A stretch of 64,000 nucleotides of DNA from Arthrobacter luteolus NBRC 107841. Its GTDB lineage: Bacteria; Actinomycetota; Actinomycetes; Actinomycetales; Micrococcaceae. The stretch's first letter is position 1; every line of letters starts with the position of its first letter. Both the position numbers and the translations under genes were made by a program. A model generated the notes under the pieces. It was not told the origin of the DNA and ran no database searches. It saw only the letters and a list, made by a program, of their open reading frames with translations. Positions 5,629 to 61,312 of this stretch are shown here, in pieces. The stretch covers positions 62,001 to 126,000 of the forward strand of contig NZ_BCQM01000004.1 in NCBI RefSeq assembly GCF_001552075.1, read 5' to 3'.

Positions 5629-5638
5629 CCGCCCCGAA

Positions 5639-5664
5639 GGCAGGCCCCGGCGACGGGGCCTGCC
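5639..5664 (+). promoter_or_regulatory. Intergenic stem-loop between receptor and permease genes
   Basis: A perfect 11-bp stem (GGCAGGCCCCG / CGGGGCCTGCC) with a GCGA loop lies just after the receptor stop codon. It has no following T-run, so it is more likely a 3' mRNA stabiliser or processing barrier than a terminator. Such elements commonly give the receptor higher expression than the membrane parts. A related hairpin lies at the same place in the sialic-acid operon (39917-39949). Confidence 0.6.
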
Positions 5665-5685
5665 CCAGGCGAGAAAACCAGGCAC

Positions 5686-6657
5686 ATGCGCCAGACACTT
5701 ACCCACAACCCCCTGCTGCGCCGCATCGCCGCTGCTGCAGGCACCCTGCTGGGAGTGGCAGTCTTCGTTTTCATCATGCTCCGTGCAATACCCGGCGATC
5801 AGATCACTGCCGGCCTCGGAACCGAAGCTGCCGCACTCACCCCGGCCCAACAGGCCGCGCTGGAGAGCTACTACGGGCTGGACCAGCCGCTCTTTATCCA
5901 GTTCTTCTCCTGGCTGGGAAACCTCTTTACTGGAAACCTCGGTTTCTCCTCCCGTGCCCAGGAAAGCGTCCTGGACCTCACGTTGCGGTCCCTCCCGGTG
6001 ACCTTCGAACTGGCAATTTTCGCGATTGTCCTGGCCTTGCTGATCGGTGTGCCGCTCGGCATGCTGGCCGCTTCCCGCCCCGATTCACCGCGCGACGGCC
6101 TGGCCCAAGTGGTTAGCCTGGCAGGGCTCTCGGTACCGGCCTTCCTGCTCGCCACCACGCTGCTCTCGGTTTTCGCCGCCTCCTGGGGCTTCAACCCGAA
6201 CGGCGAGGGCTTCGCCGCGTTTACCGACAATCCGCTGCTAAACCTGCAGCAGATGCTCCTGCCCGCGGTCGTGCTCGGATTCGGCATTGCTGCGCCGATC
6301 ATCCGGACAACGCGCACTGCGGTCCTGGAAATCCGTTCCAATGACTTCATCCGCACCGCCCGCGCCAAAGGCGTTCCGGAAGGCCGGCTGCAGGCCAGGC
6401 ACGTGCTGCGCAACGCCCTCGTTCCGATCGTCACGATGACGGGACTCCAATTCGGCTACCTGCTGGGCGGCGCCGTCGTAGTGGAGCAGATCTTCTCGAT
6501 TCCCGGGATCGGCCGGCAGGTCCTGCTCGGAATACAGCAGAAAGAGTACGCACTCGTGCAGAGCACCGTCCTTGTTATCGCCCTGACCTTCGTGATCGTG
6601 AACCTCCTGACCGATCTCCTCTACCGGGTCATCGACCCCCGGGTGCGTGCCGCATGA
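5686..6657 (+). CDS. ABC transporter permease (DppB/OppB type)
   Basis: A 323-residue integral membrane protein with about six hydrophobic helices. The N-terminal helix (LLRRIAAAAGTLLGVAVFVF) and the following LRAIPGD motif are typical of DppB. The EAA loop is visible in the C-terminal half (NDFIRTARAKGVPEGRLQARHVLRNAL), followed by GAVVVEQIFSIPGIGRQ. It forms the inner-membrane channel with the next gene, whose ATG overlaps its stop codon (ATGA at 6654). Confidence 0.92.
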   Translation: MRQTLTHNPLLRRIAAAAGTLLGVAVFVFIMLRAIPGDQITAGLGTEAAALTPAQQAALESYYGLDQPLFIQFFSWLGNLFTGNLGFSSRAQESVLDLTLRSLPVTFELAIFAIVLALLIGVPLGMLAASRPDSPRDGLAQVVSLAGLSVPAFLLATTLLSVFAASWGFNPNGEGFAAFTDNPLLNLQQMLLPAVVLGFGIAAPIIRTTRTAVLEIRSNDFIRTARAKGVPEGRLQARHVLRNALVPIVTMTGLQFGYLLGGAVVVEQIFSIPGIGRQVLLGIQQKEYALVQSTVLVIALTFVIVNLLTDLLYRVIDPRVRAA

Positions 6658-35031: not shown

Positions 35032-35964
35032 TTAGAGGAGCCCGTTGTGCTCGAGGACCGTGCGGATCACGGCGGTCTCAGCTTCATTGAGTGCCGTCAT
35101 CGGAGCCGACATAACGTTGGTTTCGATGACGCCCAGCAGCACCAGCGCGGTCTTGAAGGCGCCCAGTCCTGCGGCACCGGGGGAGACGCGGCCGGGGGTG
35201 GGCGCGTAGACAATGTTGAACAGGTTGGCCAGGCGGTCCTGGATCCGGGCTGCTTCGGCGTAGTTGCCTGCCTGGGACGCGGCATAGAGTGCCGCGTAGC
35301 CGGCCGGATCCACGTTGCCCAGGCCGGGCACCACGCCGTGGGCGCCGCCCAGCAGGGCGCCGTCCACCACTACCTCGTGACCGGTGAACACGGCGAAGTC
35401 CGGCAGGTCCTTGGTGGCCAGCAGCAGCTGGCGGAAGGAAACGTCGTCGCCGGAGGAGTCCTTGACACCGGCCAGGACGCCGTCCTGGGCCAGCTGGACC
35501 AGCACGGGCAGCGGCAGCTTGAAGTGGGTGCGGACCGGAACGTCGTAGGCGAACAGGGGCACATCGAGGGCCGCGTGCAGGGAGCGGAAGTGGGTTTCGG
35601 TTTCGGCGGCATCAGAGATGGCGTAGAACTGCGAGGTCGCCACGATGGCGTCGGCGCCCAGGTCGATCAGGCGGCGGCCCTCCTCGATGACACGCGGGGT
35701 GGTCTGCTCGCAGGCCCCGGCGATCAGGGGCACAGCGCCGGCGTTAACGCCGGCGACGGTGCGCATGATGACGTCCCGCTCGTCATTGGTGAGGTAGGGA
35801 ACCTCGCCGGAAGAACCCAGGACGAACAGTCCGGAAACGCCGCCTTCGAGCAGGTGTTTGGTCAGCTTTTCCAGCGACGCCGTATCAACGGCCCCGTCTG
35901 CGGTGCGGGGTGTGACAACCGGCGGGACTACGCCGTGGAAGCGGGATGTGGGTGTGTGTGACAA
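35032..35964 (-). CDS. nanA: N-acetylneuraminate lyase (DapA/NanA superfamily)
   Basis: A 310-residue class I aldolase. GSSGEVPYL is the 2-oxo-acid-binding loop (GxxGE), YDVPVRTHF carries the catalytic Tyr, and GVKDSSGDD the Schiff-base Lys. The family includes DHDPS, NanA and KDG aldolases; the operon with NanK and NanE and a nearby sialidase makes sialic-acid cleavage to ManNAc and pyruvate by far the most likely reaction. Sequence alone would not separate it from other lyases of the family. It is 27 bp downstream of the transporter ATPase gene. Confidence 0.88.
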   Translation of the reverse strand: MSHTPTSRFHGVVPPVVTPRTADGAVDTASLEKLTKHLLEGGVSGLFVLGSSGEVPYLTNDERDVIMRTVAGVNAGAVPLIAGACEQTTPRVIEEGRRLIDLGADAIVATSQFYAISDAAETETHFRSLHAALDVPLFAYDVPVRTHFKLPLPVLVQLAQDGVLAGVKDSSGDDVSFRQLLLATKDLPDFAVFTGHEVVVDGALLGGAHGVVPGLGNVDPAGYAALYAASQAGNYAEAARIQDRLANLFNIVYAPTPGRVSPGAAGLGAFKTALVLLGVIETNVMSAPMTALNEAETAVIRTVLEHNGLL

Positions 35965-47790: not shown

Positions 47791-48090
47791 GTGATCTTCA
47801 AAGCTGTTGGCGATGTACGCCCCTACCCCGACCACGGATACGTAACACCCAAGGACTGGGCAGCGGTACCTCCCCGGCAGGTTCGGTTGGATGAACTGGT
47901 GACTACAAAAGCCACGCTGGATCTCGGTGCCCTGCTGGCCGAGGATTCCACCTTCTTTGGAGACCTGTTCCCGCACGTCGTGCAATGGAGGGGCACTATG
48001 TATCTGGAAGACGGACTACACCGGGCAGTACGGACCGCGCTGCACCAGCGCACAATCCTGCACGCCCGCGTGCTCGTGATCGATGACTAA
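47791..48090 (+). CDS. Conserved actinobacterial protein (99 aa)
   Basis: 99 residues, GTG start. Conserved-looking blocks VRPYPDHGYVTPKDW, VRLDELVTTKATLDLGALLAEDSTFFGDLFPHVV and YLEDGLHRAVRTALHQRTILHARVL. The pattern His-Arg-Ala-Val after DG resembles ParB-type nuclease folds, and related proteins in Micrococcales are sometimes labelled antitoxin-like, but I would not assign a function. It overlaps the next gene by 8 bp, so the two form a unit. Confidence 0.75.
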   Translation: MIFKAVGDVRPYPDHGYVTPKDWAAVPPRQVRLDELVTTKATLDLGALLAEDSTFFGDLFPHVVQWRGTMYLEDGLHRAVRTALHQRTILHARVLVIDD

Positions 48091-48763
48091 CCAGCCCCCT
48101 CGCGGGCAACATGACGGCGCTCAAGCAAAGGGCGCCCCTGAACAGTGGCACGGTCACAGGATCGTCACCGAAGAGGACCTCGGCACTGTCTTCAATGACG
48201 GCGGGGACGACACAGCGGCTCGCCGCGCGAAACGCCGCCGCGCCTTTCACGGCGTTGTGCTCGGGCTTCTCATCGCTGTGCTGATTGCAGCCGCAATCGT
48301 GGTGCAGGGAATTGCCGCGGGGTGGATCAACCTGCCCCGGCCGGATATCCGGCCCGGGGCCCAGGCCGACTGCCCCGCCGGCCCCTACCTCTACCAGGCG
48401 CCGGATACCGTGACGGTGAACGTCTACAATTCGACGCCGACTCCCGGGCTCGCCACCGAGGTGGCGGAAGCGCTGAAATCCCGCGGCTTCAACGTGGACC
48501 AGACCGGGAACAGCACGGTAAACCGGGCGGGAATGACAGCCATCATCCTTTCCGGACCGGGCGGTGAAGCGGCTGCCTTTACGGTGCAGCAACAGATTCC
48601 GTCCACCCATTACATCCAGGATGACCGGAAAGACTCCTCCGTGGATGTGGTGCTGGGGTCCACGTATGAGGGCCTGGTCCCGGTGGAAAAGGCGCAGGCA
48701 GCGATTCCCGGACCCATCAGCTGCCCCTGGTCGTCAAGCTCTCCGTCAGCGGACGCAGGCTAG
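48083..48763 (+). CDS. LytR C-terminal-domain membrane protein
   Basis: A 226-residue protein with a charged cytoplasmic N-terminus, one membrane helix (about 55-78, VVLGLLIAVLIAAAIVVQG), and an extracytoplasmic LytR_C domain (about 100-200; VTVNVYNSTPTPGLATEVAEALKSRGFNV, VDVVLGSTYEGL). The domain accompanies LytR-CpsA-Psr phosphotransferases that attach glycopolymers to peptidoglycan; here it stands without the catalytic domain. Likely a cell-envelope accessory. Confidence 0.85.
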   Translation: MTNQPPRGQHDGAQAKGAPEQWHGHRIVTEEDLGTVFNDGGDDTAARRAKRRRAFHGVVLGLLIAVLIAAAIVVQGIAAGWINLPRPDIRPGAQADCPAGPYLYQAPDTVTVNVYNSTPTPGLATEVAEALKSRGFNVDQTGNSTVNRAGMTAIILSGPGGEAAAFTVQQQIPSTHYIQDDRKDSSVDVVLGSTYEGLVPVEKAQAAIPGPISCPWSSSSPSADAG

Positions 48764-48812
48764 CTGCAGCTGCAGCGGAGCGCCATGACTCCGGGTGCAG
48801 GCTAGCTGCAGC
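48755..48812. repeat. 16-bp direct repeat spanning two convergent gene ends
   Basis: GCAGGCTAGCTGCAGC occurs exactly at 48755-48770 and 48797-48812. The first copy carries the TAG stop of the LytR_C gene, the second the stop of the DsbA-like gene on the other strand. Each copy contains GCTAGC and CTGCAG palindromes. It may mark a local duplication; it is not a clear terminator (no T-run). Confidence 0.6.
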
Positions 48813-49536
48813 CCTCCGGCGAGCAGCTGGCTCCGTCCGGCGATGCATCTGCCGCTGCAGCGGCCGGCAGCAGCGGCTGGTGCCCGGCCTCCCATGCCTG
48901 GGCGAGTGCCTGCTCAAAGAGCTCGGCCGGCTGCGCCCCGGAAATGCCGTATTTGCGGTCCAGCACGAAGAACGGGACGCCGCTGACTCCCAGGGCCCGG
49001 GCTTCGGCCACGTCCTGCTCCACGGCCTCGGCGTAGTCAGTGCCGGAGAGGGTGGTGCGCACGGTTGCCGGATTCAGCCCGGCCCGGGAGCCGATCTCTG
49101 CCAGGACCCCATGGTCCGCGATATCCAGGCCCTGCTCGAAGTGCGCCGACAGCAGCGCTTCCTTGACGGCCGCCGCGGCTTCCTCGCCGCCGGACTCCCG
49201 GGCCAGGTGAATGAGCCGGTGCGCGGTGAAGCTGTTGGCCACCACCAGGTCCGCGAACCGGTAATTCAGGCCCTCGCCGGCGGCCTGGGCAGTGACATGC
49301 TCCAGCATGCCCGCAACCTGGGCCGGGTCCATGCCCTTGACCTTGCTGAGGTAGTCGATTTCCGTGCCGTCGAAGTGCTCGGGGACCGTGGGATCCAGCT
49401 GGTAGCTGCGCCAGCGGACCTCCACCTCTCCGGCGTGCTCGAAGCGGGACAGAGCGGTTTCAAAACGCCGCTTGCCAATGAAACACCAGGGACATCCGAT
49501 ATCGGACCAAATTTCTACCAACACAAAAACCCGCAA
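48802..49536 (-). CDS. DsbA-family (FrnE-like) thiol oxidoreductase
   Basis: A 244-residue cytoplasmic DsbA-fold protein. The CPWC active site is near residue 15 (VEIWSDIGCPWCFIGKRR), the helical insert contains NSFTAHRLIHLA, and the cis-Pro region is GVSGVPFFVLDRKYGISGAQP. A C-terminal CSPEGC adds a second Cys pair, as in some FrnE proteins. TTG start at 49536 with GGAAGG upstream; a GTG four codons in is an alternative. Confidence 0.88.
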   Translation of the reverse strand: MRVFVLVEIWSDIGCPWCFIGKRRFETALSRFEHAGEVEVRWRSYQLDPTVPEHFDGTEIDYLSKVKGMDPAQVAGMLEHVTAQAAGEGLNYRFADLVVANSFTAHRLIHLARESGGEEAAAAVKEALLSAHFEQGLDIADHGVLAEIGSRAGLNPATVRTTLSGTDYAEAVEQDVAEARALGVSGVPFFVLDRKYGISGAQPAELFEQALAQAWEAGHQPLLPAAAAADASPDGASCSPEGCS

Positions 49537-49648: not shown

Positions 49649-50437
49649 ATGAAAACCTGGACTGGGACAAAGACTGAGACGGGGATCGAGCCAGGCGACG
49701 GCGCCGGCGACGGGGCCGACTCGGCCGCCGTCCTGGCACTCGCCGCACTGCAGCTGGCGGAACCTGACCCGGCTGAAGCTCCGCTGACCCGGGCCGAACT
49801 GCTTCGGGCCGGGGCCTTTGCCGTGCCGGCCCTGCAGCGCCGCTTCCTCGCTGCCCGGCGGGCCGCGCGGCGTTTCGTGGCTGGGCTGGCGGGTGTTGAT
49901 CCTGCCGTGGTCACCGCCGATTACCAGTGCCCGGAGTGTGGTGCCGCTGCCACGCAGAGCCACGGAGTTCCGCGCTACCAGGTGCGGGGGAGGGCGGTGC
50001 CGTTCCAGGTCAGCTTCAGCCGCAGCGGGCAATGGCTGCTGGCCGGGGCCACCGCTGCCGGACCGCTGGGTGTGGACCTGGCGGACCTCGCCGGATTCGG
50101 CGATCCACGGCTGGATGCGGTGATCGCCACGGACGCTGAACAGGCAAAGTACGACGTCGTTGCACCGGCAAGCCGGGCACTGCGGCAGGCGCGGTTGTGG
50201 ACCCGGAAGGAAGCAGTCCTTAAAGCCTCTGGAGACGGACTGCGCACCGCCCCGCACCTGATTGAGGTCGGTGTGGAGGCAGGCACGGACTCCACCGTGG
50301 CCGTGGGCCCTGCCGGGGACCGCGTGTTAATCATCGATCTGGACACCCGAAGGCTCGGCCTGCCAACCGGGCTGCTCGCAGCCGCGGCCGTTCCGGCGGC
50401 CGGCGGCCTCCGGATCGAGCAGCGCCGCTGGAACTAA
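49649..50437 (+). CDS. 4'-phosphopantetheinyl transferase
   Basis: A 262-residue Sfp-type PPTase. Both core motifs are present: GVDLADLAGF (Mg-binding Asp) and WTRKEAVLKASGDGL. PPTases transfer phosphopantetheine to the conserved Ser of carrier domains. The Pls-like synthetase 1.7 kb downstream has a carrier domain with such a Ser, so this enzyme probably activates it. ATG at 49649; longer upstream extensions are unlikely. Confidence 0.85.
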   Translation: MKTWTGTKTETGIEPGDGAGDGADSAAVLALAALQLAEPDPAEAPLTRAELLRAGAFAVPALQRRFLAARRAARRFVAGLAGVDPAVVTADYQCPECGAAATQSHGVPRYQVRGRAVPFQVSFSRSGQWLLAGATAAGPLGVDLADLAGFGDPRLDAVIATDAEQAKYDVVAPASRALRQARLWTRKEAVLKASGDGLRTAPHLIEVGVEAGTDSTVAVGPAGDRVLIIDLDTRRLGLPTGLLAAAAVPAAGGLRIEQRRWN

Positions 50438-50458
50438 GCTCCGGCGCAGGCCTGTCCC

Positions 50459-51658
50459 TCAGCCCGCCCCCGGTCCGCCGTCGGCCGTTGGCAGTTCCCT
50501 GCCGCGCGCCAGTACCCGCCGGCGGGCCGCGCCTGCGGCTTTCGCGACCAGGTTTTCCAGCGGCCCCTGGCTGTGGAACTTACGCCAGATCAGTGCGAAT
50601 GCGAGCACGGCTGCGACCTGCAGCACCAAGGAGACTTCGGGCTGGTCCTCATAGAAGCCGCTGCCCAGGACCAGAAGGTGGGCGGTGTAAAGCGTCAGGG
50701 TCATGCTCCCCGCGGCAGCCAGCGGGAGGAGATAGCGTCCGGCCACGCTGCCGAGGAGCAGCATGGCACCGAGCACGGCCGCGGCAACTCCGATGGTGTA
50801 CACGAGGTCCAGCGGCGTAGTGGAGTGCGGGGCGAGGATGGCAAACCACCAGAACGTCGACGTGGACAGGTATCCCTCCGGCCCCCAGATGAGGACATCC
50901 TGGACCGCTTCGGTGTCCATGCCCGGCGTGGCAGCCACAATCTGGCCAAGGCCGCCCAGCGGCCCCAGCAGCAGGGCCGAGGCCATCGCAGCGGCAAGGG
51001 CAGTGCCAACTCCCGCAGCAAGGACGGCCGTCTGGGTTTTCCATTCCCCGAGCCGCAGCCGTCCGATGGCGAGTCCGGCGCAGATGTACGCCATCCAGGG
51101 GATTGCTGGATAGGTCCCGGTCAGCAGCAGCTGGGTCACGATCTGCCACGGATCCGTAAAGAGGTCCGTAAGAGTTGGGTCGTAACCGGGTTCCGGAAGG
51201 TAATCGCGCAGGACCATCATCAGGGTTGGGCCCAGGACCGCGAAGCCCGCCGCCGCGGCAAACAACACCCGGGCGGAGAGGCCCAGCAGGGGAACCGCCA
51301 GCAGGAACATCACACCGTAGTAGGCCAGGATGATGAAGGCCGGCATATCGATGTAGGCAATGGTCAGGCCGATTGCGCCGACCAGCAGCGCACGGACCGC
51401 GGTTCCCCGGCGTACGGCCGCCAGTTCCAGCCCCCGCTTCGGACGTACTCCGCCAGAGGAGAGTGCCAGGGTCACCCCGGCGAGGAGAGCGAAGAGTGCG
51501 GCCGACTTTCCGGCGAAAAGGGACCAGGACCAGGTGGGGGAGAAATCGTCTGTTGCCGCCGGGAGCACGTGGATGGCCATCATGCCGATCAGTGCGATTC
51601 CACGGGCGGCGTCTATTCCCGTAAACCTGGTTTTCGGCATCGTGCCGGAAGTGCTCAT
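50459..51658 (-). CDS. HGSNAT_cat/DUF418 membrane protein, putative acyltransferase (copy A)
   Basis: A 399-residue protein with about ten helices. The start (TGIDAARGIALIGMMAIHVLP) matches the heparan-alpha-glucosaminide N-acetyltransferase-like domain and the C-terminal half (PLAAAGSMTLTLYTAHLLVLG) matches DUF418. Such proteins are thought to move acyl groups across the membrane. It is divergent from the Pls-type gene and is a paralogue of the protein at 57212-58567 over nearly its whole length (shared motifs AIHxLPA, LFAGxxxALFALLAG, ILAYYGVMFLLA, YPxxPWMAxICAGLAIGR). RBS GAAGGGG. Confidence 0.85.
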   Translation of the reverse strand: MSTSGTMPKTRFTGIDAARGIALIGMMAIHVLPAATDDFSPTWSWSLFAGKSAALFALLAGVTLALSSGGVRPKRGLELAAVRRGTAVRALLVGAIGLTIAYIDMPAFIILAYYGVMFLLAVPLLGLSARVLFAAAAGFAVLGPTLMMVLRDYLPEPGYDPTLTDLFTDPWQIVTQLLLTGTYPAIPWMAYICAGLAIGRLRLGEWKTQTAVLAAGVGTALAAAMASALLLGPLGGLGQIVAATPGMDTEAVQDVLIWGPEGYLSTSTFWWFAILAPHSTTPLDLVYTIGVAAAVLGAMLLLGSVAGRYLLPLAAAGSMTLTLYTAHLLVLGSGFYEDQPEVSLVLQVAAVLAFALIWRKFHSQGPLENLVAKAAGAARRRVLARGRELPTADGGPGAG

Positions 51659-51678
51659 GGAACCCCTTCAAATGCTGC

Positions 51679-51708
51679 CTGGTGCTGGTGCTGGTGCTGG
51701 TGCTGGTG
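51679..51708 (+). repeat. CTGGTG hexamer microsatellite, five copies
   Basis: Five exact tandem copies of CTGGTG, 21 bp upstream of the DUF418 copy A start. The complementary transcript would read (CACCAG)n. Such an array can slip in length and so alter leader structure or spacing. Confidence 0.9.
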
Positions 51709-51863
51709 TCTGCCCTGTTGCCGGTATTGCCCGTGGTGCTGGCCGTGCCCGTGGTGCTGTTCATTTTCGTGGTGCCGGAAGTTCCAGTGTTGTCCGTGTG
51801 ACGGGTGCTTAGTGGTATTGCCGGTGGTTCCGGTGGTTCCCGTGTTTTAGGTGGCACCCGTCA

Positions 51864-51892
51864 TTTGCTTCGGACCGCTGGTCCGAGGCAAA
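51864..51892. promoter_or_regulatory. 13-bp inverted repeat upstream of the Pls-type synthetase
   Basis: TTTGCTTCGGACC, a GCT spacer, then GGTCCGAGGCAAA: 12 of 13 positions complementary and the 13th a G-U pair in RNA. No T-run follows on either side. It is either a protein-binding operator or an RNA hairpin in the leader of the synthetase mRNA, about 275 bases before its start. Confidence 0.6.
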
Positions 51893-52165
51893 CAATGCGG
51901 ACTGTGCCACGGCTATGCGCAAACTGGGAGTTTCCTGTGAGCCATGAGTATCACGAGGTCAGCAGCACTGGAACGAGTAGAGCGCCAGTAATTGCCCGGT
52001 GGGGGCCTGCGTACCGGGCAGCAGACGGCAAGCCACGGTACTCATGTTCAGGGCAGAAGGCCGTCCTTAGGCTACCTTTGGCCGCTGGTTCGAGTGTCTT
52101 GCTGGGAGACAGAGCGATGCGGCGAACAGCCCTGCCATACCGTGCCACCAAGGAAGAAAAGCCCG

Positions 52166-55100
52166 ATGACTCTGTCCGAAGACCGGTCCGAACCACTGAG
52201 CTCAACGAAGGGAATCCGTCAGAGCACCTGCACAGGCAACGCAGCAGAACTATCCCGTGCGGAAGCAGACCGGATGCGGGTATTCAGCCGCACCACGCTG
52301 GCGCCCGACCACGCCGTTTTCTACGGCGGACCCGCGCCGGAGCAGCGCACCCTCGTAGACATCTTCAACGAGACGACAGCGGCTTATCCGTCGGCACCGG
52401 CCCTGGACGACGGAACGGATCCGCTCACCTATGCCGAACTCTCCACCCGGGTCCACGCCCTGGCCCGGAAACTCTGGTCAGCCAGCATCGGTGCCGGAGA
52501 CCGGGTCGGGATTCTGGTCCCCTCCGGATCCGCGGACCTGTACATCGCCATTCTCGGGGTCCTTTTCTCCGGTGCTGCCTATGTGCCGGTCGACGCGGAC
52601 GAGCCCTCCGGACGCGCGGACATTGTCTGGGCCGAGGGCGGAGTCTGCGCCGTGATCGGCGAAGGACTCCAGCTGACCATCCGGCAGGGGGTTCCCATCC
52701 ATGGCAGCGGCCCGGAACCGCACCCCGAGGACGACGCCTGGATCATTTTTACGTCCGGTTCCACCGGTAAGCCCAAGGGCGTTGCCGTGACCCACCGTTC
52801 CGCTGCCGCGCTGGTTGACGCCGAATCGCGGCTCTACTGCGTTGACCAGCCGCTGCGCCCGGGAGACCGGGTCCTCGCCGGGCTCTCCGTGACTTTCGAT
52901 GCTTCCTGCGAGGAAATGTGGCTGGCCTGGGCTCACGGTGCCTGCCTGGTCCCGGCTCCCCGTTCGGTGGTCCGCTCGATCATCGACCTGGGGCCCTGGC
53001 TCCAGGAGCGCAAAATCACGGCGGTCTCCACCGTGCCCACCCTGGCCTCCGTCTGGCCGGCAGAGACCGTCAGCCGGATCCGGCTGCTGATCTTCGGCGG
53101 CGAAGCCTGCCCGGTGGAACTCGGTGCCCGCCTCTCCGGACCCGGCCGGGAAGTCTGGAATACCTATGGGCCCACCGAAGCCACGGTCATCGCCTGTGGC
53201 GCCAGACTGGACGGCACCGACCCCGTCCGGATCGGCCTTCCGCTGGAAGGCTGGAACCTCGCCGTCGTGGATCCGGACGGTAACCCGGTGGCCTGGGGTG
53301 AAGAGGGAGAACTGGTCATTGGAGGAGTGGGCCTGGCCCGCTACCTGGATTCCCGGATCAGCGCCGAGAAGTACGCGCCGCTGCCGTCACTGGGCTGGAA
53401 CCGGGCCTACCGCAGCGGAGATAAGGTGCGGGCCGAGCGCGAAGGACTCATTTTCGCCGGACGCCTGGACGAACAGGTGAAACTCGCCGGCAGGCGCGTG
53501 GAACTGGGGGAAATCGACCATGCCCTGGCCGCGCTGCCGGGGGTCACCAGCGCTGCGGCGGCGGTGCAGGTCACCGCCAGCGGCAACGAGATCCTGGTGG
53601 GCTACCTGATCGAGTCCGCCCCCGGGGGCGTGGACCTGGCGGCTGCCCGGACCGAACTCAGCACCCGGCTTCCGGCCACGCTGGTGCCCACCCTGCGGAT
53701 CATTGATGAGCTGCCCATGAAGTCCTCCGGCAAGGTGGACCGCAACGCGCTCAGCGCCCCCGAAACAGCGGTGGAGCAGCAGCTTGACGTCGAAGTGGAG
53801 CTCAATGCTGACCTGCGCTGGCTCGCCAAGCGCTGGACGGACCTGCTGGGGCCGCAGCCGCTGACCAAGGACAGCGACTTCTTTGCCCTGGGCGGCGCCA
53901 GCCTCGCGGCCGCGCAGCTCGTCTCCGCGCTGCGGGAACGCTATCCGAAGGTCTCGATCGCCGATATCTACGCCCATCCCTCCCTTCTGGCGATGGCCGG
54001 CCGGCTCCGGGAAACCACTGACGACGGCGCCGCGAAGCGCGAGGTCCCCAATACGCCCTGGTGGACGGGCTTGTTTCAGGCCCCGCTGATCGCCGGCCTC
54101 TACGCCATCACAGGCCTGCGGTACGTCACCGGGATTGCCATTGTCTGCTGGGTGATGAGCAACGTGCTGGCCACGCCCTGGACACCGGATCCGCCGCTGC
54201 TGCCGCTGCTGGCCGCCTGGCTTGTGCTCTACAGCCTGCCGGCCCGGATGCTCGCAGCGGTCCTGGCCTGCCGGGCACTGCTGTTCCGGATCCGGCCCGG
54301 AGTTTATGCACGCGGCGGGGGAACGCACCTGCGGCTCTGGGCCGCCGAACGGATTGTCACGTACGGCAAGCTGGAACCCATCATGGGGACCCCGCTGGGA
54401 CTCTGGTATGCGCGGGCTCTAGGCTGCGGCGTCGGGCCTAATGTGCATCTGGAGGCTATGCCTCCGGTGACCGGGCTGGCGCAGATCGGCGCCGGTGCCG
54501 CCGTCGAATATGAAGTGGACCTGGCCGGACACTGGCTCGACGGGCATCTCCTGCACATTGGGCACATCCGGATCGGAGCGCACAGCCGGGTAGGGGCGCG
54601 GTCCACGGTGACCGGGAACGCCCAGGTCGGCGAGGGAAGCGAGATTGAACCCGGGACGTTCGTTTCGGGCCAGGTGCCCCCGGGCGAAAAATGGTCCGGG
54701 TCCCCGATGGAGTACCTTGGCTCAGCCGGCGAGGGCTGGCCCAGGAATCCCGGAACCAAGGGGCCGGCAGGTATGAACCTGCTGTACACAGCGGGCCTGT
54801 CCTGGCTCACCATTATGACGCTGCTGGCCGTCCTTCCCGGCTCCATGCTGGTGCTCCTGCTGCTGCAGGACGCCCAGGACCTTGGGCCGGCGCTGTTAGA
54901 ACTGGCCCTGTGGGCTCCCGTCTTCGTGGTGCTGACCATGGGCACGTACCTGGCGCTGACGGTGTTTTCCGTCCGCATGCTCCAATCGCTGCTGCCCGCC
55001 GGGATGCATCCCCTGGATGGTCCGACGGGCTGGGCCGCGTGGCTGACGAACCAGCTGCTGGCGAAAAACCTGATCTCCATGTACCCGCTGTACGCGGGGC

Positions 55101-56254
55101 TGCTCACTCCGGTGTGGATGGAATGGCTCGGTGCCAAGGTGGGCCGGAACGCTGAAATTTCCACTGTGGAGACCCTTCCGCACCTCACCGACGTAGGCGA
55201 CCGCGCCTTCCTGGCGGACCATTCCATGGTCTCCGTGGCGAAGGTCCGGCAGGGTTGGCTCTCGCTTGGTTTTTCGCGGGTGGGAGAGAAGTCCTTTGTC
55301 GGGAACTCCGCAGTTGTGGGCGGCGGTGTCAGCGTGCCGGACCACTCGCTGATCGCTGTGCTGTCCTCTGCACCCGCGGACATGCCGGAGAACTCCTCCT
55401 GGTTTGGGCGGCCTCCGGTGGAGCTTCCCCGCCCGGTCGAAGAGCGGGACGCCTCCCGGACCTATGATCCGCCGCTCCGGCTGAAATTCGCCCGGGCCGC
55501 CGTCGAGGCGTGCCGCATCATTCCGGCCATCATCACGGTCTGGCTGGCGCTGGCCACCGTCTTTGTGCTGGCGTTCATCTCCGACGAAGCCGGTCTGCTG
55601 GCCGCAGTGCTGTGGTCCGGTCCGGTTCTGCTGGCGAGCGGGACCGCAGCCTGCCTGACGGCGATCGCCGCGAAGTGGCTGCTGCTGGGGCAGTTCCGGG
55701 TTTCGGAACATCCGCTCTGGAGTTCCTTCGTCTGGCGCAACGAGCTGGCGGATGTCTTCTCCGAATCGCTGGCGGTCCCCGGCCTGGTCCGGATGTCCCT
55801 GGGCACGCCCATGCTCAACGCCTGGCTGCGCTGGATGGGTGCGAACGTGGGGCGTGGCGTGTGGTGCGAGACCTGGTGGCTGCCTGAATTCGACCTCATT
55901 GAAATCGGCAAGGGCGCCAGCATCAACCGTGGCACCGTGCTGCAGACCCACCTGTTCCACGAACGCATCATGCGGATGGATTCCGTGTGGATCGGGGCGG
56001 GAGCAACGCTCGGCCCCAACAGCATCGTGCTTCCGGGCAGCACCATCGAGGACGGGGCCACGGTTGGCAGCTGTTCACTGGTCATGCGCGAAGAAAGCGT
56101 ACCGGCCCACAGCACGTGGTACGGGAATCCGCTGACCCATTGGGACGCCGTTGCCGGATCGGCTACCGCCCCGGAGCACCGGGACGCGCTGAGCCCCCGC
56201 ATTGATTCGCTTCCCCCGCACGGGCGCAGGCGCGCCCTGACCCAGTCACGATAG
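52166..56254 (+). CDS. Pls-type membrane peptide synthetase (epsilon-poly-lysine synthetase-like)
   Basis: A 1362-residue chain with the Pls layout. Adenylation domain about 40-525: A3 TSGSTGKPKG (about 196), A4 TFDASCEEMWLAW, A5 NTYGPTEATV, A8 YRSGDKV, A10 SGKVDRNAL. Carrier domain about 540-625 with LGGASL; Ser579 receives phosphopantetheine. Then six membrane helices in three pairs (about 640-735, 870-940, 1110-1175), each followed by a left-handed-helix-like domain (about 773-840, 991-1070, 1227-1330). No condensation or thioesterase domain. Streptomyces albulus Pls (about 1320 aa) has this plan and joins amino acids into a homopolymer. ATG 52166 with AGGA upstream. The monomer is not determinable; a dapA gene follows. 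Confidence 0.88.
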   Translation: MTLSEDRSEPLSSTKGIRQSTCTGNAAELSRAEADRMRVFSRTTLAPDHAVFYGGPAPEQRTLVDIFNETTAAYPSAPALDDGTDPLTYAELSTRVHALARKLWSASIGAGDRVGILVPSGSADLYIAILGVLFSGAAYVPVDADEPSGRADIVWAEGGVCAVIGEGLQLTIRQGVPIHGSGPEPHPEDDAWIIFTSGSTGKPKGVAVTHRSAAALVDAESRLYCVDQPLRPGDRVLAGLSVTFDASCEEMWLAWAHGACLVPAPRSVVRSIIDLGPWLQERKITAVSTVPTLASVWPAETVSRIRLLIFGGEACPVELGARLSGPGREVWNTYGPTEATVIACGARLDGTDPVRIGLPLEGWNLAVVDPDGNPVAWGEEGELVIGGVGLARYLDSRISAEKYAPLPSLGWNRAYRSGDKVRAEREGLIFAGRLDEQVKLAGRRVELGEIDHALAALPGVTSAAAAVQVTASGNEILVGYLIESAPGGVDLAAARTELSTRLPATLVPTLRIIDELPMKSSGKVDRNALSAPETAVEQQLDVEVELNADLRWLAKRWTDLLGPQPLTKDSDFFALGGASLAAAQLVSALRERYPKVSIADIYAHPSLLAMAGRLRETTDDGAAKREVPNTPWWTGLFQAPLIAGLYAITGLRYVTGIAIVCWVMSNVLATPWTPDPPLLPLLAAWLVLYSLPARMLAAVLACRALLFRIRPGVYARGGGTHLRLWAAERIVTYGKLEPIMGTPLGLWYARALGCGVGPNVHLEAMPPVTGLAQIGAGAAVEYEVDLAGHWLDGHLLHIGHIRIGAHSRVGARSTVTGNAQVGEGSEIEPGTFVSGQVPPGEKWSGSPMEYLGSAGEGWPRNPGTKGPAGMNLLYTAGLSWLTIMTLLAVLPGSMLVLLLLQDAQDLGPALLELALWAPVFVVLTMGTYLALTVFSVRMLQSLLPAGMHPLDGPTGWAAWLTNQLLAKNLISMYPLYAGLLTPVWMEWLGAKVGRNAEISTVETLPHLTDVGDRAFLADHSMVSVAKVRQGWLSLGFSRVGEKSFVGNSAVVGGGVSVPDHSLIAVLSSAPADMPENSSWFGRPPVELPRPVEERDASRTYDPPLRLKFARAAVEACRIIPAIITVWLALATVFVLAFISDEAGLLAAVLWSGPVLLASGTAACLTAIAAKWLLLGQFRVSEHPLWSSFVWRNELADVFSESLAVPGLVRMSLGTPMLNAWLRWMGANVGRGVWCETWWLPEFDLIEIGKGASINRGTVLQTHLFHERIMRMDSVWIGAGATLGPNSIVLPGSTIEDGATVGSCSLVMREESVPAHSTWYGNPLTHWDAVAGSATAPEHRDALSPRIDSLPPHGRRRALTQSR

Positions 56255-56267
56255 AGCAGGAGAGACC

Positions 56268-57215
56268 ATGTTCAGCGAAGCAGCATCCTCGAAATCTTCG
56301 GTGGCTGAGGCTGCCTTCGGCCGCGTCCTCACGGCCATGGTGACGCCTTTCGACGCCGCCGGCAAGCTCGACCAGCCGGGCGCGGCAGACCTGGTCCGGT
56401 GGTTGTGCCGGGACGGCTGGAATGACGGAGTGGTGGTCAACGGGACCACGGGCGAGTCCTTCGCCACCTCCAACTGGGAGAAGGCCTCCATGGTCCACGC
56501 CGCCTCCAGCGTCCTGCAGGGGACCGGGAAAAAAGTGGTTGCGGGGGTGGGCTCAGGAGACACGGCCCACAGCATTGCGCTGGCCGAGGAAGCGGCGGCC
56601 CAGTATGCCGACGGCCTGCTGGTCGTGGCGCCGTACTATTCCCGTCCGTCGCAGGCCGGGCTGCTGCGCCACTTCCTTGCCGTTGCTGACAGCACGGACC
56701 TCCCCGTGATGCTCTATGACATTCCGAAACGGACCGGGGTGGCGATCAGCCCGGAAACCCTGGCAGCGGCGTCCCTGCACCCCCGGATCGTGGCGGTGAA
56801 GGATGCGAAGGGTGACCTGGAGTCCACTTCCAAGGTGATTGCGGACACCGGGCTCGCCTACTATTCCGGGGACGATGCGCTCAATCTGCCGCTCCTGTCC
56901 GTGGGCGCGGCCGGATTCGTCTCCGTGGTCGGCCACGTGGCAGCCCACCGCCTTTCCGCGCTCCTGGCAGCCTACGGCGAGGGACGCGTCCGTGATGCAC
57001 TGGAGATCCACCGCAGCCTGCTGCCCGTTTACACCGGAGCCTTCCGGGCACCGGCAGCTGCCTCCATCAAGGCCCTGCTGAACCGGATTGGCCTTCCCGC
57101 CGGGCCGGTGCGGCTGCCCCTGGTGGACCTCACGGCGGAGGAAACGGCTTTGTTCGTGCAGGACGCGGAGACCGCCGGGCTCTCCGGCGCCCTCCTGACC
57201 GCAGCGGTCCAATGA
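56268..57215 (+). CDS. dapA: 4-hydroxy-tetrahydrodipicolinate synthase paralogue
   Basis: A 315-residue aldolase of the DapA family, condensing pyruvate with aspartate semialdehyde toward diaminopimelate and lysine. GTTGESFATSNWE is the oxo-acid loop, VVAPYYSRPS includes the Tyr motif, MLYDIPKRTGV the second Tyr, and IVAVKDAKGD the Schiff-base Lys. It is 13 bp after the synthetase stop with a good RBS (AGGAGAG), and its ATGA overlaps the next gene. A dedicated copy here suggests precursor supply for a lysine- or DAP-type monomer. Confidence 0.88.
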   Translation: MFSEAASSKSSVAEAAFGRVLTAMVTPFDAAGKLDQPGAADLVRWLCRDGWNDGVVVNGTTGESFATSNWEKASMVHAASSVLQGTGKKVVAGVGSGDTAHSIALAEEAAAQYADGLLVVAPYYSRPSQAGLLRHFLAVADSTDLPVMLYDIPKRTGVAISPETLAAASLHPRIVAVKDAKGDLESTSKVIADTGLAYYSGDDALNLPLLSVGAAGFVSVVGHVAAHRLSALLAAYGEGRVRDALEIHRSLLPVYTGAFRAPAAASIKALLNRIGLPAGPVRLPLVDLTAEETALFVQDAETAGLSGALLTAAVQ

Positions 57216-58567
57216 CACCAGAGCCGGACTCCTTCTCCGCCGGGAAAGCGGGTCAACATGTGGCCGGGACCCGGTCTGACGCCGCCCGGGATGCGGTCCC
57301 CGCCAAGTCCCGGCTGATGGGAGTGGACGCCGCCCGCGGACTTGCGCTGCTGGCCATGATGGCCATCCACATCCTGCCTGCCGTAAATGATGACCTGGAA
57401 CCAACGCTGGCCTGGTCCCTGTTCGCGGGGCGCGGCGTCGCACTTTTTGCCCTGCTCGCCGGGCTGTCCCTGGCGCTCTCCTCCGGCGGAACCCGCCGCC
57501 TGGACGGCCGCTCGCTGACCGCTGCCCGAACCGGGATCGCGGTCCGCGCAGGCATCATCATGGTCATTGGGCTGCTGCTGGGATACCTGGCGATTCAGGC
57601 GCAGGTGATCCTCGCGTACTACGGCGTGATGTTCCTGCTGGCACTGCCCCTGCTGAAGCTCTCGGTCCGGGCATTGACCTGGCTGGCCGGATCGACCGCG
57701 CTGCTGATGCCGTTCCTGATGCAGGGCCTGCGCGATTACCTGCCGGACCCCGGGGAGGAGCAGCCCACCTTCACCGGCCTGTTCACGCATTTTGATGTCA
57801 CCGCGGCCCAGCTTCTCCTCACCGGGGTGTACCCGGTCCTGCCCTGGATGGCATTTATCTGCGCAGGACTGGCGATCGGCAGGCTGGACCTGCGCAGCCG
57901 CCGGGTGCAGACGGGCCTGCTTGCGGGCGGCTGCGGCCTGGCGCTCCTGACCACCCTGGCCTCCGCTTTCCTGCTCGGCCCCGGCGGTGGACTGGAGAAC
58001 CTGGAAGAGGTCAGGGGCGGTGAGGAAACGGTCAATGACATTCTGGTGTGGGGACCGGATCCCACCCTGCCCACAGATTCGTGGTGGTGGCTGGCCGGGA
58101 TGGCACCCTACTCCAGCACCCCGCTGGCCATCCTGAACACCATCGGCATCTCCGTTGCCGTGCTGGCGGCGCTGCTCCTGCTCGGTCAGCGGGCGCGGCC
58201 GGTTATCTCTCCCCTGGCCGCCATGGGGTCAATGACCCTGACGCTTTACACCGCGCACCTGCTCCTGCTGGCCACCGGCCTGCTGGCAGACTCCCCGGAA
58301 ATCTCCCTGATTGTGCAGGTCCTCCTGCTCAGCGTCTTTGCCGTCATCTGGGGACGAAAGCGGGGCCAGGGACCGCTGGAACGGCTGGTATCGGCGGCAG
58401 TCAAGCGCACACGCACGGCGGTGCTGGCCCGTGGCAGCAGCGGTCCGGGCAGCGGTCCCGGCCGGCCCGCCCACGGCAAGCACGGGGCCCGGGCAGAGAA
58501 CCACCCCGAACACGGCCACCACCGGGCCGATGCGCGGGACCCGGATCCACCCCCTTCGGGCCCGTGA
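57212..58567 (+). CDS. HGSNAT_cat/DUF418 membrane protein, putative acyltransferase (copy B)
   Basis: 451 residues, paralogous to the protein at 50459-51658. Core blocks: MGVDAARGLALLAMMAIHILPA, LILAYYGVMFLLALPLL-type helix, YPVLPWMAFICAGLAIGR and PLAAMGSMTLTLYTAHLLLL. An extra N-terminal tail of about 35 residues and a His/Pro-rich C-terminal tail (GKHGARAENHPEHGHHRAD) distinguish it from copy A. ATGA overlap with dapA and GTGA overlap with the next gene place it firmly in the synthetase operon. Confidence 0.85.
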   Translation: MTPEPDSFSAGKAGQHVAGTRSDAARDAVPAKSRLMGVDAARGLALLAMMAIHILPAVNDDLEPTLAWSLFAGRGVALFALLAGLSLALSSGGTRRLDGRSLTAARTGIAVRAGIIMVIGLLLGYLAIQAQVILAYYGVMFLLALPLLKLSVRALTWLAGSTALLMPFLMQGLRDYLPDPGEEQPTFTGLFTHFDVTAAQLLLTGVYPVLPWMAFICAGLAIGRLDLRSRRVQTGLLAGGCGLALLTTLASAFLLGPGGGLENLEEVRGGEETVNDILVWGPDPTLPTDSWWWLAGMAPYSSTPLAILNTIGISVAVLAALLLLGQRARPVISPLAAMGSMTLTLYTAHLLLLATGLLADSPEISLIVQVLLLSVFAVIWGRKRGQGPLERLVSAAVKRTRTAVLARGSSGPGSGPGRPAHGKHGARAENHPEHGHHRADARDPDPPPSGP

Positions 58568-59610
58568 ACGCGGGGCTGCGCGGGATCCCGCGCATCAGTG
58601 CGGCGCTCGGCGCCGCAGCGGCGCTGCTCCTCATGGGGGCAGCGCCGGTTCATGCACTGCCCCCGGAAGCACCGAGACCGCAGGACACCGCTGCGGCAGC
58701 GTCAGCGGCTGCTGCGGCGGCCGCGCGAAGCGGAGTCTCGCCCAATCCCTGTGCACGGCTGACGGCGGGTGAAGTGAAGTTCGACGTCGGTGCCGCGGAC
58801 CGCGTCACGTTTGCCACGGCCCATGCCTACGGCGAATCTGAGGTGCTCATCACCGGGTGCGTGGCCGACGGGGAAGGCGGCTATGAGCAGGAATGGCAGG
58901 CCACCGGTTTCGCCGGGCGCAACGGTTTCGCCCCCGCAGGCCGGATGTGGGAGAACACCTTGTTTTCGCCCACCGGTACCTTCACCGTCACCGAGGCGCT
59001 CGGCAGAAAGAATCCCGGGACTGAACTGGAGTACTACACGCTGAACGAGGCATCACGCTGGGGCGGGGAAAAAGGGCCGACCTACAACCAGTACTTCGAG
59101 GGGACCGGCGGTCCGGCAGATGAAAACCTCTGGCGGTACATGAACAGTGGACTCTATGAGCAGGCAGCGGTGATCAACTGGAACCGTCCGCCGGATATGC
59201 CTGTCACCCAGGGCGCCTCGTTCGCCATCTTCCTGCATGCCGGCAACGCGAGGACCTGGGGATGCATCTCCACGGACCTGCCGACCGTGGAGAGGTTCCT
59301 GCGCACCGCGGTCCCTGGCGACAGAATGGTCATGGGAATCCAGCCGGACGTGTTTATCCCGTCCACCGCCCGCTCCGACGCTGCCGCAGCGGCCCGGGAA
59401 GCGGAAGGACTGGCCGCCGAAGCACGCGCCGCCGAAGCACGCGCATCGGCTAAAGCCGCTGCCGGACGGGAGGGCGGGGAAGGGGAACCGCACTGGGAAC
59501 CGTACGCCGTGGTGGGGTTTTCCGTTGCCCTCTTCGCTGCCTATCTGGCGGCCAAGCTGCGCTCCTCCCGTGCGGAGCGGGCGCAGCGGGAAACGCAGGT
59601 GCCTCAATAG
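58564..59610 (+). CDS. Secreted L,D-transpeptidase-like protein with C-terminal membrane helix
   Basis: A 348-residue protein starting at GTG with a signal peptide (ISAALGAAAALLLMGAAPVHA). An Ala-rich stretch leads to a domain whose key motif FAIFLHAGNARTWGCISTD has the His and Cys of the YkuD/L,D-transpeptidase active site. A second Ala/Glu-rich helix (about 270-300) and a C-terminal membrane segment (VVGFSVALFAAYLAAKL) follow, ending in a basic tail. It may crosslink or modify peptidoglycan, or attach the polymer made by the cluster; the latter is speculation. Confidence 0.75.
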   Translation: MNAGLRGIPRISAALGAAAALLLMGAAPVHALPPEAPRPQDTAAAASAAAAAAARSGVSPNPCARLTAGEVKFDVGAADRVTFATAHAYGESEVLITGCVADGEGGYEQEWQATGFAGRNGFAPAGRMWENTLFSPTGTFTVTEALGRKNPGTELEYYTLNEASRWGGEKGPTYNQYFEGTGGPADENLWRYMNSGLYEQAAVINWNRPPDMPVTQGASFAIFLHAGNARTWGCISTDLPTVERFLRTAVPGDRMVMGIQPDVFIPSTARSDAAAAAREAEGLAAEARAAEARASAKAAAGREGGEGEPHWEPYAVVGFSVALFAAYLAAKLRSSRAERAQRETQVPQ

Positions 59611-59680
59611 CTACCTTCTGTGACCGGTCCCGGCGCCGGACGTTCGGCCTCCGGGCGCGCCGCCGCTAGACTTTCACATC

Positions 59681-59899
59681 ATGGGAAACAGCTTCGGAGA
59701 CCGCCCGGGAACGGGCGAGAGTGGCTCCAGGGTGGGTTACCCGGAGGGGAAAGCCCTGTACGAGGAACGGATGAAGCTGCTTCCGGGCCTCTGGATGTCA
59801 CCGGCTCCACCGTGGGACGAGCTCCCGGAAGACACCCGCGCCCGCTGGCAGCGCACGGCCGAAGAGGCCGACCGCCGGACCGGACAGCGGGATAACTAA
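59681..59899 (+). CDS. Small hypothetical protein (72 aa)
   Basis: 72 hydrophilic residues (GYPEGKALYEERMKLLPGLWM, WDELPEDTRARWQRTAEEADRR). No signal or membrane segment. Not recognised. It lies between the L,D-transpeptidase-like gene and the aminopeptidase gene in the same direction. Confidence 0.6.
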   Translation: MGNSFGDRPGTGESGSRVGYPEGKALYEERMKLLPGLWMSPAPPWDELPEDTRARWQRTAEEADRRTGQRDN

Positions 59900-59950
59900 G
59901 GCCGCTCCTACGGCTGACAAAACCGGGACGTGATGGCAGGATCAGGCCGC

Positions 59951-61312
59951 ATGCACGCCGCCGATCCGTCCTTCGCAAACTTCCAGCTGGCGCAGTCCCC
60001 TTCCGGCAGCTATTCCGCCGGCCATGGCCACCGCGAATATGCGGTCTCCCGGTACGGACTCACCCTGGACTATTCAGTGACCGCCAACCTCCTCACCGGA
60101 ACAGCTGAATTGGAGCTGGTGGCGCGGGAGCCCCTGGCCGGCATCGTCCTGGACCTCCAATCTGAGCTGGCGGTCAGTCAGGTGGAAGCCGGCGGGCAGC
60201 AGCTCCCGTTCACCCAGGGACGGCAGCATCTGCGGATTACCCTTCCGGGGCAGCTGCCGGCGGGCGCCGCCTTTTCCCTGCGGATCCGCTACGCCGGGTT
60301 TCCCCAGCCACTGGACGGACCGTGGGGGAGCATCGGGTGGGAGGAACTGACCGACGGCGCGCTGGCGGCCGGCCAGCCGGCCGGCGCACCCACCTGGTTT
60401 CCCTGCAACGATCATCCAGCGGACAAGGCCTCCTACCGGTTCGTGGTGACGGTGGAGGAAGAGTACCGGGTGGTCGCCAACGGTGCGTGCAGCGGCCAAA
60501 CAGCGGAAGCAGGCCGGCGCACCTGGGTCTTCGAGCAGCCTGAGCCCATGGCGGCGTACCTCGCCACGGTGCAGATCGGCAGATATGAACAGGTGCGGCT
60601 GGGGGCACCGGGTTCGGAACAGGCACCGGGCGCACCGGTGCAGCTGTTGGCCGCGCCGGAGCGGCTGCTGCCCAAGGCACGGGCGGCCTTGATGGAGCAG
60701 GACCGGATCTTCGCGGCCTTTGAAAACTGGTTCGGTCCGTACCCGTTTGGCAGCTACACGGTGGTGGTGACGGAGGACAAACTGGAGATCCCCCTCGAAG
60801 CACAGACCATCACCGTCCTCGGCCGGAATCAACTGGGCAGGAAATCCCGCCGGCTGCTGGCCCACGAACTGGCCCACCAATGGTTTGGCAACTCGGTCAC
60901 CGCTTCGGGCTGGCAGGACATCTGGCTGCACGAAGGATTCGCCACCTACGCGGAATGGCTGTGGTCTGAAGCCGCCGGACGGGAAACAGCCCACGAGCTG
61001 GGACAGGAAGCCTGGCACTGGCTCTCGCGCCGGCCGGAGAATCTCTGCCTGGTATCACCGGGACCGGAGCGGATGTTCGATGACCGCTTGTACGTCCGCG
61101 GCGGCCTGGCCCTGCACGCGCTGCGGCGGGTGGCTCCGGACAGCCTGTTCTTCGGCCTGCTGCGGACCTGGACCGCTGAGTTCCGGCACAGCAATGCCTC
61201 CACCACCGACTTTCTGGAACTGGCAGGCCGGATCTATGCCGGCACCGGAATTGATCCCGCTGCGGTGCTGGAACCGTGGCTGGTGGACACGGCGCTGCCG
61301 CCCTGTCCCTGA
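59951..61312 (+). CDS. M1-family zinc aminopeptidase-like protein
   Basis: About 453 residues. A beta-rich N-terminal domain precedes the catalytic region, where HELAHQWFGN (about residue 305) and the Glu ligand in WLHEGFATYAEWLW form the M1 zinc site (HExxH-x18-E). The exopeptidase motif GxMEN is altered (EDKLEIPLEAQTIT). Shorter than full-length PepN, lacking the C-terminal arch. Known epsilon-poly-lysine-degrading enzymes are zinc aminopeptidases, so a link to the adjacent synthetase is possible. Alternative starts 59930 and 59933. Confidence 0.85.
   Translation: MHAADPSFANFQLAQSPSGSYSAGHGHREYAVSRYGLTLDYSVTANLLTGTAELELVAREPLAGIVLDLQSELAVSQVEAGGQQLPFTQGRQHLRITLPGQLPAGAAFSLRIRYAGFPQPLDGPWGSIGWEELTDGALAAGQPAGAPTWFPCNDHPADKASYRFVVTVEEEYRVVANGACSGQTAEAGRRTWVFEQPEPMAAYLATVQIGRYEQVRLGAPGSEQAPGAPVQLLAAPERLLPKARAALMEQDRIFAAFENWFGPYPFGSYTVVVTEDKLEIPLEAQTITVLGRNQLGRKSRRLLAHELAHQWFGNSVTASGWQDIWLHEGFATYAEWLWSEAAGRETAHELGQEAWHWLSRRPENLCLVSPGPERMFDDRLYVRGGLALHALRRVAPDSLFFGLLRTWTAEFRHSNASTTDFLELAGRIYAGTGIDPAAVLEPWLVDTALPPCP

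Follow-up and report, generated by a model that had tools for sequence, protein, structure and literature searches.

The window analysed here is a stretch of 64,000 nucleotides from Arthrobacter luteolus NBRC 107841 (contig NZ_BCQM01000004.1, positions 62,001 to 126,000; coded G000:C4:62001-126000, where G000 is the window's own genome). Congeners and relatives are coded G and loci L, each with a three-digit number. Between positions 49649 and 61312 the window carries pls, a gene for a synthetase of the epsilon-poly-L-lysine synthetase type, inside a block of accessory genes, and we regard this block as a candidate cluster for the production and modification of that polymer. The features are as follows.

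49649-50437, plus strand: 4'-phosphopantetheinyl transferase (PPTase), PF01648 E 5.5e-9, with a homologue at the equivalent spot in 9 of 9 further congeneric pls loci
50459-51658, minus strand: AT1, putative transmembrane acyltransferase of HGSNAT/TmAT type, divergent from pls, PF07786 E 1.3e-13, with DxxRx10H
51659-52165, no strand: divergent intergenic region between AT1 and pls, with low-complexity GGTGCT-type repeats
52166-56254, plus strand: Pls-type synthetase of 1362 aa, with adenylation (A), carrier (T) and tandem C domains and six membrane stretches
56268-57215, plus strand: DapA2, second 4-hydroxy-tetrahydrodipicolinate synthase, TIGR00674
57212-58567, plus strand: AT2, putative transmembrane acyltransferase, PF07786 E 3e-13, PF01757 E 1e-10
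about 58564-59610, plus strand: LDT-like, secreted L,D-transpeptidase-like protein, hydrophobic near its C terminus
59681-59899, plus strand: conserved small protein of 72 aa, core LYEERxxLLPGLWMPPAPxWExLPExxRxRW
59930-61312, plus strand: M1 metallopeptidase like those of other pls loci, PF01433 E 1e-22

All reading frames of the block are open in the window. The PPTase gene lies upstream of pls, AT1 is divergent, and the small gene and then the M1 gene follow the LDT-like gene. The genes pls, dapA2, AT2 and LDT-like look like one operon, because they run in the same direction with a 13-base gap followed by two four-base overlaps (DapA2 stop with AT2 start, AT2 stop with LDT start). Repeats of GGTGCT/CCGTGGT type were seen at 51680-51860 in the AT1-pls gap. 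Every gene named in the original prediction, which had been made from the letters of this DNA, was found in its place; the conserved 72-aa gene had been overlooked, and turned up on inspection of the gap between the LDT-like and M1 genes.

The Pls protein matched TIGR02353 over its full length with 600.5 bits (cut-off 423.1), and its AMP-binding (E 7.8e-60) and PP-binding (E 1.7e-9) domains were both over their cut-offs. Condensation and thioesterase families were not found among its four Pfam matches at E 0.001. Hydropathy placed six hydrophobic stretches in the C-terminal half, in three pairs (about 641-672/678-713, 871-904/905-939, and 1111-1152/1142-1174). The Pls-type architecture first described, with adenylation and carrier domains, three pairs of membrane stretches and neither condensation nor thioesterase domain, was therefore recovered. 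The accompanying claim of three left-handed-helix-like domains stood in part: PF00132 repeats were over the cut-off and best in the last C domain, the first C domain fell just under the PF14602 cut-off, and the middle one was covered by TIGR02353 only. As judged from its sequence, the protein is a full-length member of the Pls/PosA family.

The PDB sequence closest to the A domain was 7wew, the solved A domain of epsilon-poly-L-lysine synthase (E 2e-180 to 2e-179), with FDASCEEMW unchanged. The ten pocket positions were placed through the 7wew alignment and the PosA residue numbers quoted in PMC10522769. The window pocket, DAESIGTVIK, equals the commonest Pls pocket at nine of ten positions. 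Among 96 Pls proteins, DAESIGTVVK was present in 72, DAESIGTVIK in 21 (window included), DAESIGTIIK in 2, and DFEYNGTVTK in 1 (L034). At the second, chain-length position of the pocket, Ala is reported for lysine enzymes, Met for ornithine, and Phe for diaminopropionate (Dap) and diaminobutyrate (Dab) enzymes (PMC10522769). The window protein has Ala, and ornithine, Dab and Dap were rejected as monomers, as the reported Met and Phe are absent from its pocket. Comparison of the specificity residues, named as a check in the original prediction, thus gave a lysine-type pocket. The homopolymer-type synthetase stands, and the list of four proposed monomers (lysine, ornithine, Dab, Dap) is narrowed to lysine, favoured by the pocket Ala together with the DapA paralogue. 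L-Lysine is very probably the monomer, and with similarly high confidence we infer a polymer as the product of the cluster.

The Pls/PldII systems of Streptomyces albulus and Corynebacterium variabile (PMC8117764) share with the window the A-T-C1-C2-C3 layout, six membrane stretches, a lysine-type pocket, and an M1 peptidase nearby. Unlike them, the window has a Pls of a separate clade (clade A, below) and adds two acyltransferases, DapA2, the LDT-like protein, and the small protein. PosA, the delta-poly-L-ornithine synthetase of Acinetobacter baumannii (PMC10522769), belongs to the same family, TIGR02353 being named Pls/PosA, but its chain-length residue is Met and its gene is described as forming an operon by itself, whereas the window shows Ala there and a block of several genes. 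Pls homologues in Arthrobacter have already been published (PMC8117764).

The wider survey covered 80 loci (the best 80 of 588 relatives, leaning to close ones) and 14 further loci, of which L035 and L027 are one and the same genome. The Pls tree was a quick one with no mixture model, rooted on one long branch (L034), and it separated clade A (24 rows, support 96; Arthrobacter, Zafaria, Paeniglutamicibacter, Citricoccus, Nesterenkonia, Kocuria, and Corynebacterium) from clade B (71 rows, support 99), with L034 as outgroup. The clade labels count M1 and AT genes anywhere within the fetched locus. An AT gene was present beside pls in 23 of the 24 clade A rows, the exception being L045, a contig of a metagenome-assembled genome, and it was the next gene after pls or pls-dapA in several genera. 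In clade B, an M1 gene was present in the locus of 66 of 71 rows (missing in L046, L055, L057, L085, and L101), mostly directly behind pls, and one locus, L021, showed an AT-type gene about 2 kb upstream. The claim that the gene set is unlike the simple pls-peptidase locus of Streptomyces was borne out.

The synthetase of the outgroup L034 (932-8080) is much more divergent and has a TmAT-type gene and an M1 gene for neighbours, so that helpers of the same types accompany a different pocket type. Paeniglutamicibacter L038 (4509-13870) has two adjacent pls genes in divergent orientation, one of clade B accompanied by M1 and one of clade A accompanied by dapA-AT, and the coordinates of G248 suggest the same arrangement.

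The variation in the pocket might mean that this clade makes a related but different polymer, either from another diamino acid or as a short lysine oligomer or conjugate. In line with this are Ile at pocket position nine (21 of 96), the Ile-Ile form (2 of 96), and pairs of pls genes, 62-67% and 49-52% identical to the window's, in at least 7 of the 295 family genomes (G072, G124, G134, G140, G172, G186, and G248). However, Nesterenkonia L040, a clade A member, retains the Val pocket, nine of ten positions match, and DapA2 points to lysine or diaminopimelate; we consider a different polymer improbable.

Within the genus, pls was found in 12 of 29 genomes, and ten of these loci (the window and nine further; G039 and G041 left out) were compared. 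The block PPTase-AT1-pls-dapA2-AT2-LDT-small gene-M1 kept its order and relative strand in 10 of 10, so the survey of relatives, set beforehand as a test of the gene set, found the neighbouring genes adjoining pls at every congeneric locus compared. At all nine further loci, Pls was 68-94% identical to that of the window, and its frame was open over 1359 codons or more. These intact frames, those of the window itself, and the constant order argue against a decaying or silent block that makes nothing. The restriction of pls to 12 of 29 congeners and the failure of native C. variabile to make detectable polymer in the conditions tried (PMC8117764) would fit such a block, which nevertheless appears very unlikely.

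None of the block genes was found at the matching locus in the 17 pls-less congeners (E 1e-8). Both flanks were visible in 15 of these; L129 has no right flank in its stretch, and L133 ends with the contig. LytR_C and FrnE lay within about 0.1 kb of each other in seven pls-less loci (L127, L128, L134, L135, L139, L140, and L141). As it is kept whole beside pls and is missing from pls-less loci, the block seems to come and go in one piece. Its position relative to FrnE varies: it is found past FrnE in the window, L026, and L027, but on the opposite side in L028-L033. The LytR_C-FrnE interval (48083-49536 in the window; L125, L126, L131, L136) holds other DNA of about 4.7-8.6 kb in several pls-less congeners and is a possible insertion hot spot.

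All 12 pls-positive congeners carried two extra acyltransferases and none of the 17 pls-negative ones did, a contrast beyond chance, although the Fisher tests used take no account of common ancestry; HGSNAT_cat genes numbered three or four in the 12 pls genomes and one in 16 of the 17 others, G042 showing a weak second. The AT2 model, built from 17 rows, had a predicted local distance difference test score (pLDDT) of 92.4. In the Foldseek search of this model against the PDB, human HGSNAT, which spans the membrane and acetylates amines, occupied ranks 1-8 (E 1e-4 to 9e-3) and accounted for the sole matches below E 0.01, the next match having E 0.037. One of these entries, 8jl4, is labelled only 'membrane proteins' and was taken as HGSNAT via the neighbouring 8JKV and 8JL1 cited in PMC12423673. 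AT2 is thus predicted to have an HGSNAT-like TmAT fold.

His20, Phe46, Gly51, Arg79, and Tyr313 were invariant in 17 of 17 AT2 rows. The conserved TmAT residues given in PMC12423673 include DxxR, FxxxxG, an Arg of transmembrane helix 3 (TMH3), and a Tyr of TMH9, and all of these mapped residues are retained. The AT3-type DxxRx10H motif was present in 41 of 43 ATs, both misses being rows with the start set late. AT1 and AT2 therefore appear by sequence to be HGSNAT/TmAT-type membrane acyltransferases, alike to that superfamily (PMC12423673) in predicted fold (modelled for AT2) and in these four features, and sharing DxxRx10H with AT3 proteins. They differ from HGSNAT in having His for its TMH1 Asn, in lacking a luminal domain, and in their distant sequence.

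Enzymes of the TmAT class move acyl groups from cytosolic coenzyme A (CoA) onto an acceptor outside (PMC12423673). As the two ATs adjoin a membrane enzyme that would extrude a chain of amines, the polyamine chain would be their natural acceptor, a reading that we hold tentatively and at slightly less than even confidence. The claim that the region modifies its polymer gains support from the type of both membrane proteins, the acceptor itself remaining a matter of inference. Since TmAT enzymes acylate sugars too, the acceptor could also be a wall polymer. The cluster would then be an ordinary epsilon-poly-lysine cluster in which AT1 and AT2 protect the producer by acylating its envelope (wall polysaccharide, teichoic acid, or peptidoglycan) and leave the polymer unmodified. 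Such protection would suit an antimicrobial polymer, TmAT enzymes can acylate extracytosolic sugars (PMC12423673), and a similar AT gene is found near dapA in pls-less genomes. The HGSNAT matches speak for an amine acetylator, and the AT gene directly follows pls or pls-dapA in several genera, so envelope acylation is a serious explanation but an unlikely one.

DapA2 matched TIGR00674 with 243.6 bits (cut-off 206.15), and its translation shows the motifs GTTGE and YxxPxRTG and the Lys of KDAKG, which we take to be catalytic. The sole other above-cut-off dapA of the genome, the housekeeping copy on G000:C12, encodes a protein of about 42% identity to DapA2. A second DapA behind pls gives separate support for lysine. 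A further DapA-superfamily protein (35047-35931, minus strand) scored 151.5 bits, below the dapA cut-off.

A third HGSNAT-type gene lies divergently near the housekeeping dapA (L122:4215-5384 and 5515-6399, on G000:C12). In five of the six genomes inspected the two genes are about 0.1 kb apart; in L144 the gap is 1.8 kb. A branch with 100/99 support in the AT tree separates six dapA-linked ATs from 37 others (drawn rooted on those six, the split being undated). The idea that dapA2-AT2 is a recent copy of the G000:C12 dapA-AT pair found no support in this split or in the DapA identity.

The M1 protein carries HELAH...E, which, with its PF01433 match, agrees with the zinc-aminopeptidase call made earlier. 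Of 79 M1 proteins encoded at pls loci, 70, among them that of the window, have EAQ instead of GAMEN; EAH, ESQ, or ENQ is found in eight of the remaining nine, L034 being different again. GAMEN itself is present in both of the other M1 proteins of the genome. The window protein thus appears to belong with the M1 proteins of pls loci, the set used for this comparison (PldII's own sequence not included), and this grouping fits the claim that the region degrades its polymer. In the pls-pldII type of operon the peptidase gene comes immediately after pls, and PldII is reported to be translationally coupled to pls (PMC9223678); clade B M1 genes, e.g., that of L102, fit this coupling. The window differs, as its M1 gene starts 3.7 kb past the pls stop, with dapA2, AT2, the LDT-like gene, and the small gene intervening.

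The LDT-like protein has hydrophobic stretches at 8-33 and 314-332. It matched YkuD (PF03734) with 17.2 bits, below the cut-off of 23.4, and 11 of 14 orthologues matched YkuD weakly (best E 8e-4). His225 and Cys234 were invariant in 14 rows, and the protein shares with YkuD L,D-transpeptidases the His, the GC motif, and a PGD stretch behind it. The genome encodes one clear YkuD protein, and hhalign paired the two with a probability of 1.5%, although with the GC motifs aligned. Chitinases (E 0.59) were the only matches when PDB sequences were searched with a profile. The L,D-transpeptidase-like label is a lead, His and Cys being invariant but the YkuD match itself lying below the Pfam cut-off. 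This sub-threshold similarity is the only basis of the claim that the polymer is displayed, and attachment to the wall by this protein is doubtful.

Matches to the LDT-like protein occurred in 67 of the 295 family genomes, with a strong group (at least 295 bits) of 27. Nearness of the LDT and small genes to pls was compared by eye from coordinates, among the pls matches listed and with two candidates scored per genome; the models A3 and A5 drew in part on genomes that were themselves among those searched, and those matches are not independent. Twenty-one of the 27 strong matches lay within 2.7 kb of a pls at least 61% identical to the window's. Four lay away from pls (G187, G123, and G171, with pls elsewhere, and G109, with no pls match), and G208 and G158 fall outside this count, as the place of their pls was not among the matches listed. 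None of the weaker matches comparable with listed pls positions was near pls, and five genomes of genus g27 (G083, G128, G145, G220, and G304; pls 60-61% identical) gave no LDT match. The LDT gene of Citricoccus L039 is located upstream of a clade A pls and is divergently oriented. In L038 and G248 its place is between the clade A-type and clade B-type pls; it is divergent from the former, runs in the same direction as the latter, and could serve either.

The small protein had matches in 32 of the 295 family genomes. In all 26 family genomes with a pls at least 60% identical, the small gene lay downstream on the same strand within 3.7 kb, some of them having a second copy elsewhere. Matches without such a pls came from G064, G121, G159, G183, G197, and G308, some of them weak. 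The Kocuria and Corynebacterium loci and L045 yielded no homologue, and L036 has a stretch that matches the small gene but lacks an open frame. The window protein gave no Pfam family at E up to 5, and 13 orthologues gave one weak Emfourin and one weak HMG_box match. An MbtH-like role as partner of a nonribosomal peptide synthetase is an idea only, as the search gave no MbtH family match. TAGACT shortly before the ATG in the window suggests a leaderless transcript.

With family membership, pocket, gene order, and conservation read from the sequences and the AT2 fold predicted, we think it rather probable that the block is an accessory cluster for epsilon-poly-L-lysine and represents a 'clade A' type of its own, in which lysine would be supplied from within the block, the polymer N-acylated outside the membrane, and the M1 peptidase would trim it. 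The PPTase would arm the carrier domain of Pls, which would adenylate and load L-lysine; the membrane-embedded tandem C domains would form the epsilon-linked homopolymer, which would exit the cell, and DapA2 would add flux to the lysine branch. AT1 and AT2 would draw acyl groups (in the simplest case acetyl) from CoA in the cytosol and pass them across the membrane to the amines of the emerging polymer. The effect might be lower charge, capping, or protection of the producer. The M1 peptidase would trim or degrade the polymer, and the LDT-like protein may tie it to peptidoglycan. The original prediction holds in part, being right about a Pls-type cluster with a conserved gene set unlike the simple locus.

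Several observations pull the other way. The window pocket departs from the commonest form at one position, Ile for Val. The AT2-HGSNAT match is distant (14-16% identity, root-mean-square deviation 7.5-8.4, query TM score 0.52-0.58), and TmAT proteins acylate sugars as well as amines (PMC12423673). The third HGSNAT-type gene stands near the housekeeping dapA in 6 of 6 genomes inspected (the window's and five congeners), four of them pls-less, which indicates that this family does not serve poly-lysine only. The LDT-like protein misses the Pfam cut-off, and the AlphaFold model of its LDT domain (six rows) had a mean pLDDT of only 56.3. C. variabile made no detectable polymer in the conditions tried, nor did C. 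glutamicum given the C. variabile gene, although S. coelicolor carrying that gene did make polymer (PMC8117764).

Among the open-access papers listed, none was found to connect pls of Micrococcaceae with an acyltransferase, with DapA, with a transpeptidase, or with a small protein in its title or abstract opening. Within the literature searched, the new elements are the package of clade A, its link to acyltransferases, and the small gene; the kind of enzyme and its occurrence in the genus were already known.

Epsilon-poly-lysine is used as a food preservative, and its regulation and natural role are less well understood (PMC8117764). As a bolder and rather unlikely version of our proposal, clade A would make N-acylated and possibly wall-anchored epsilon-poly-lysine, with a membrane station of two ATs, a diverged L,D-transpeptidase coupling it to peptidoglycan, and the 72-aa protein as partner of the synthetase. 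If true, the polymer would sit on the cell surface as a polycation instead of being secreted as an antibiotic. The tie between transmembrane acyltransferases and this separate synthetase branch, seen in Micrococcaceae and in some Corynebacterium, leads us to predict a modified polymer that might escape screens for the free polycation, and the cluster supplies named genes and a mass shift to look for.

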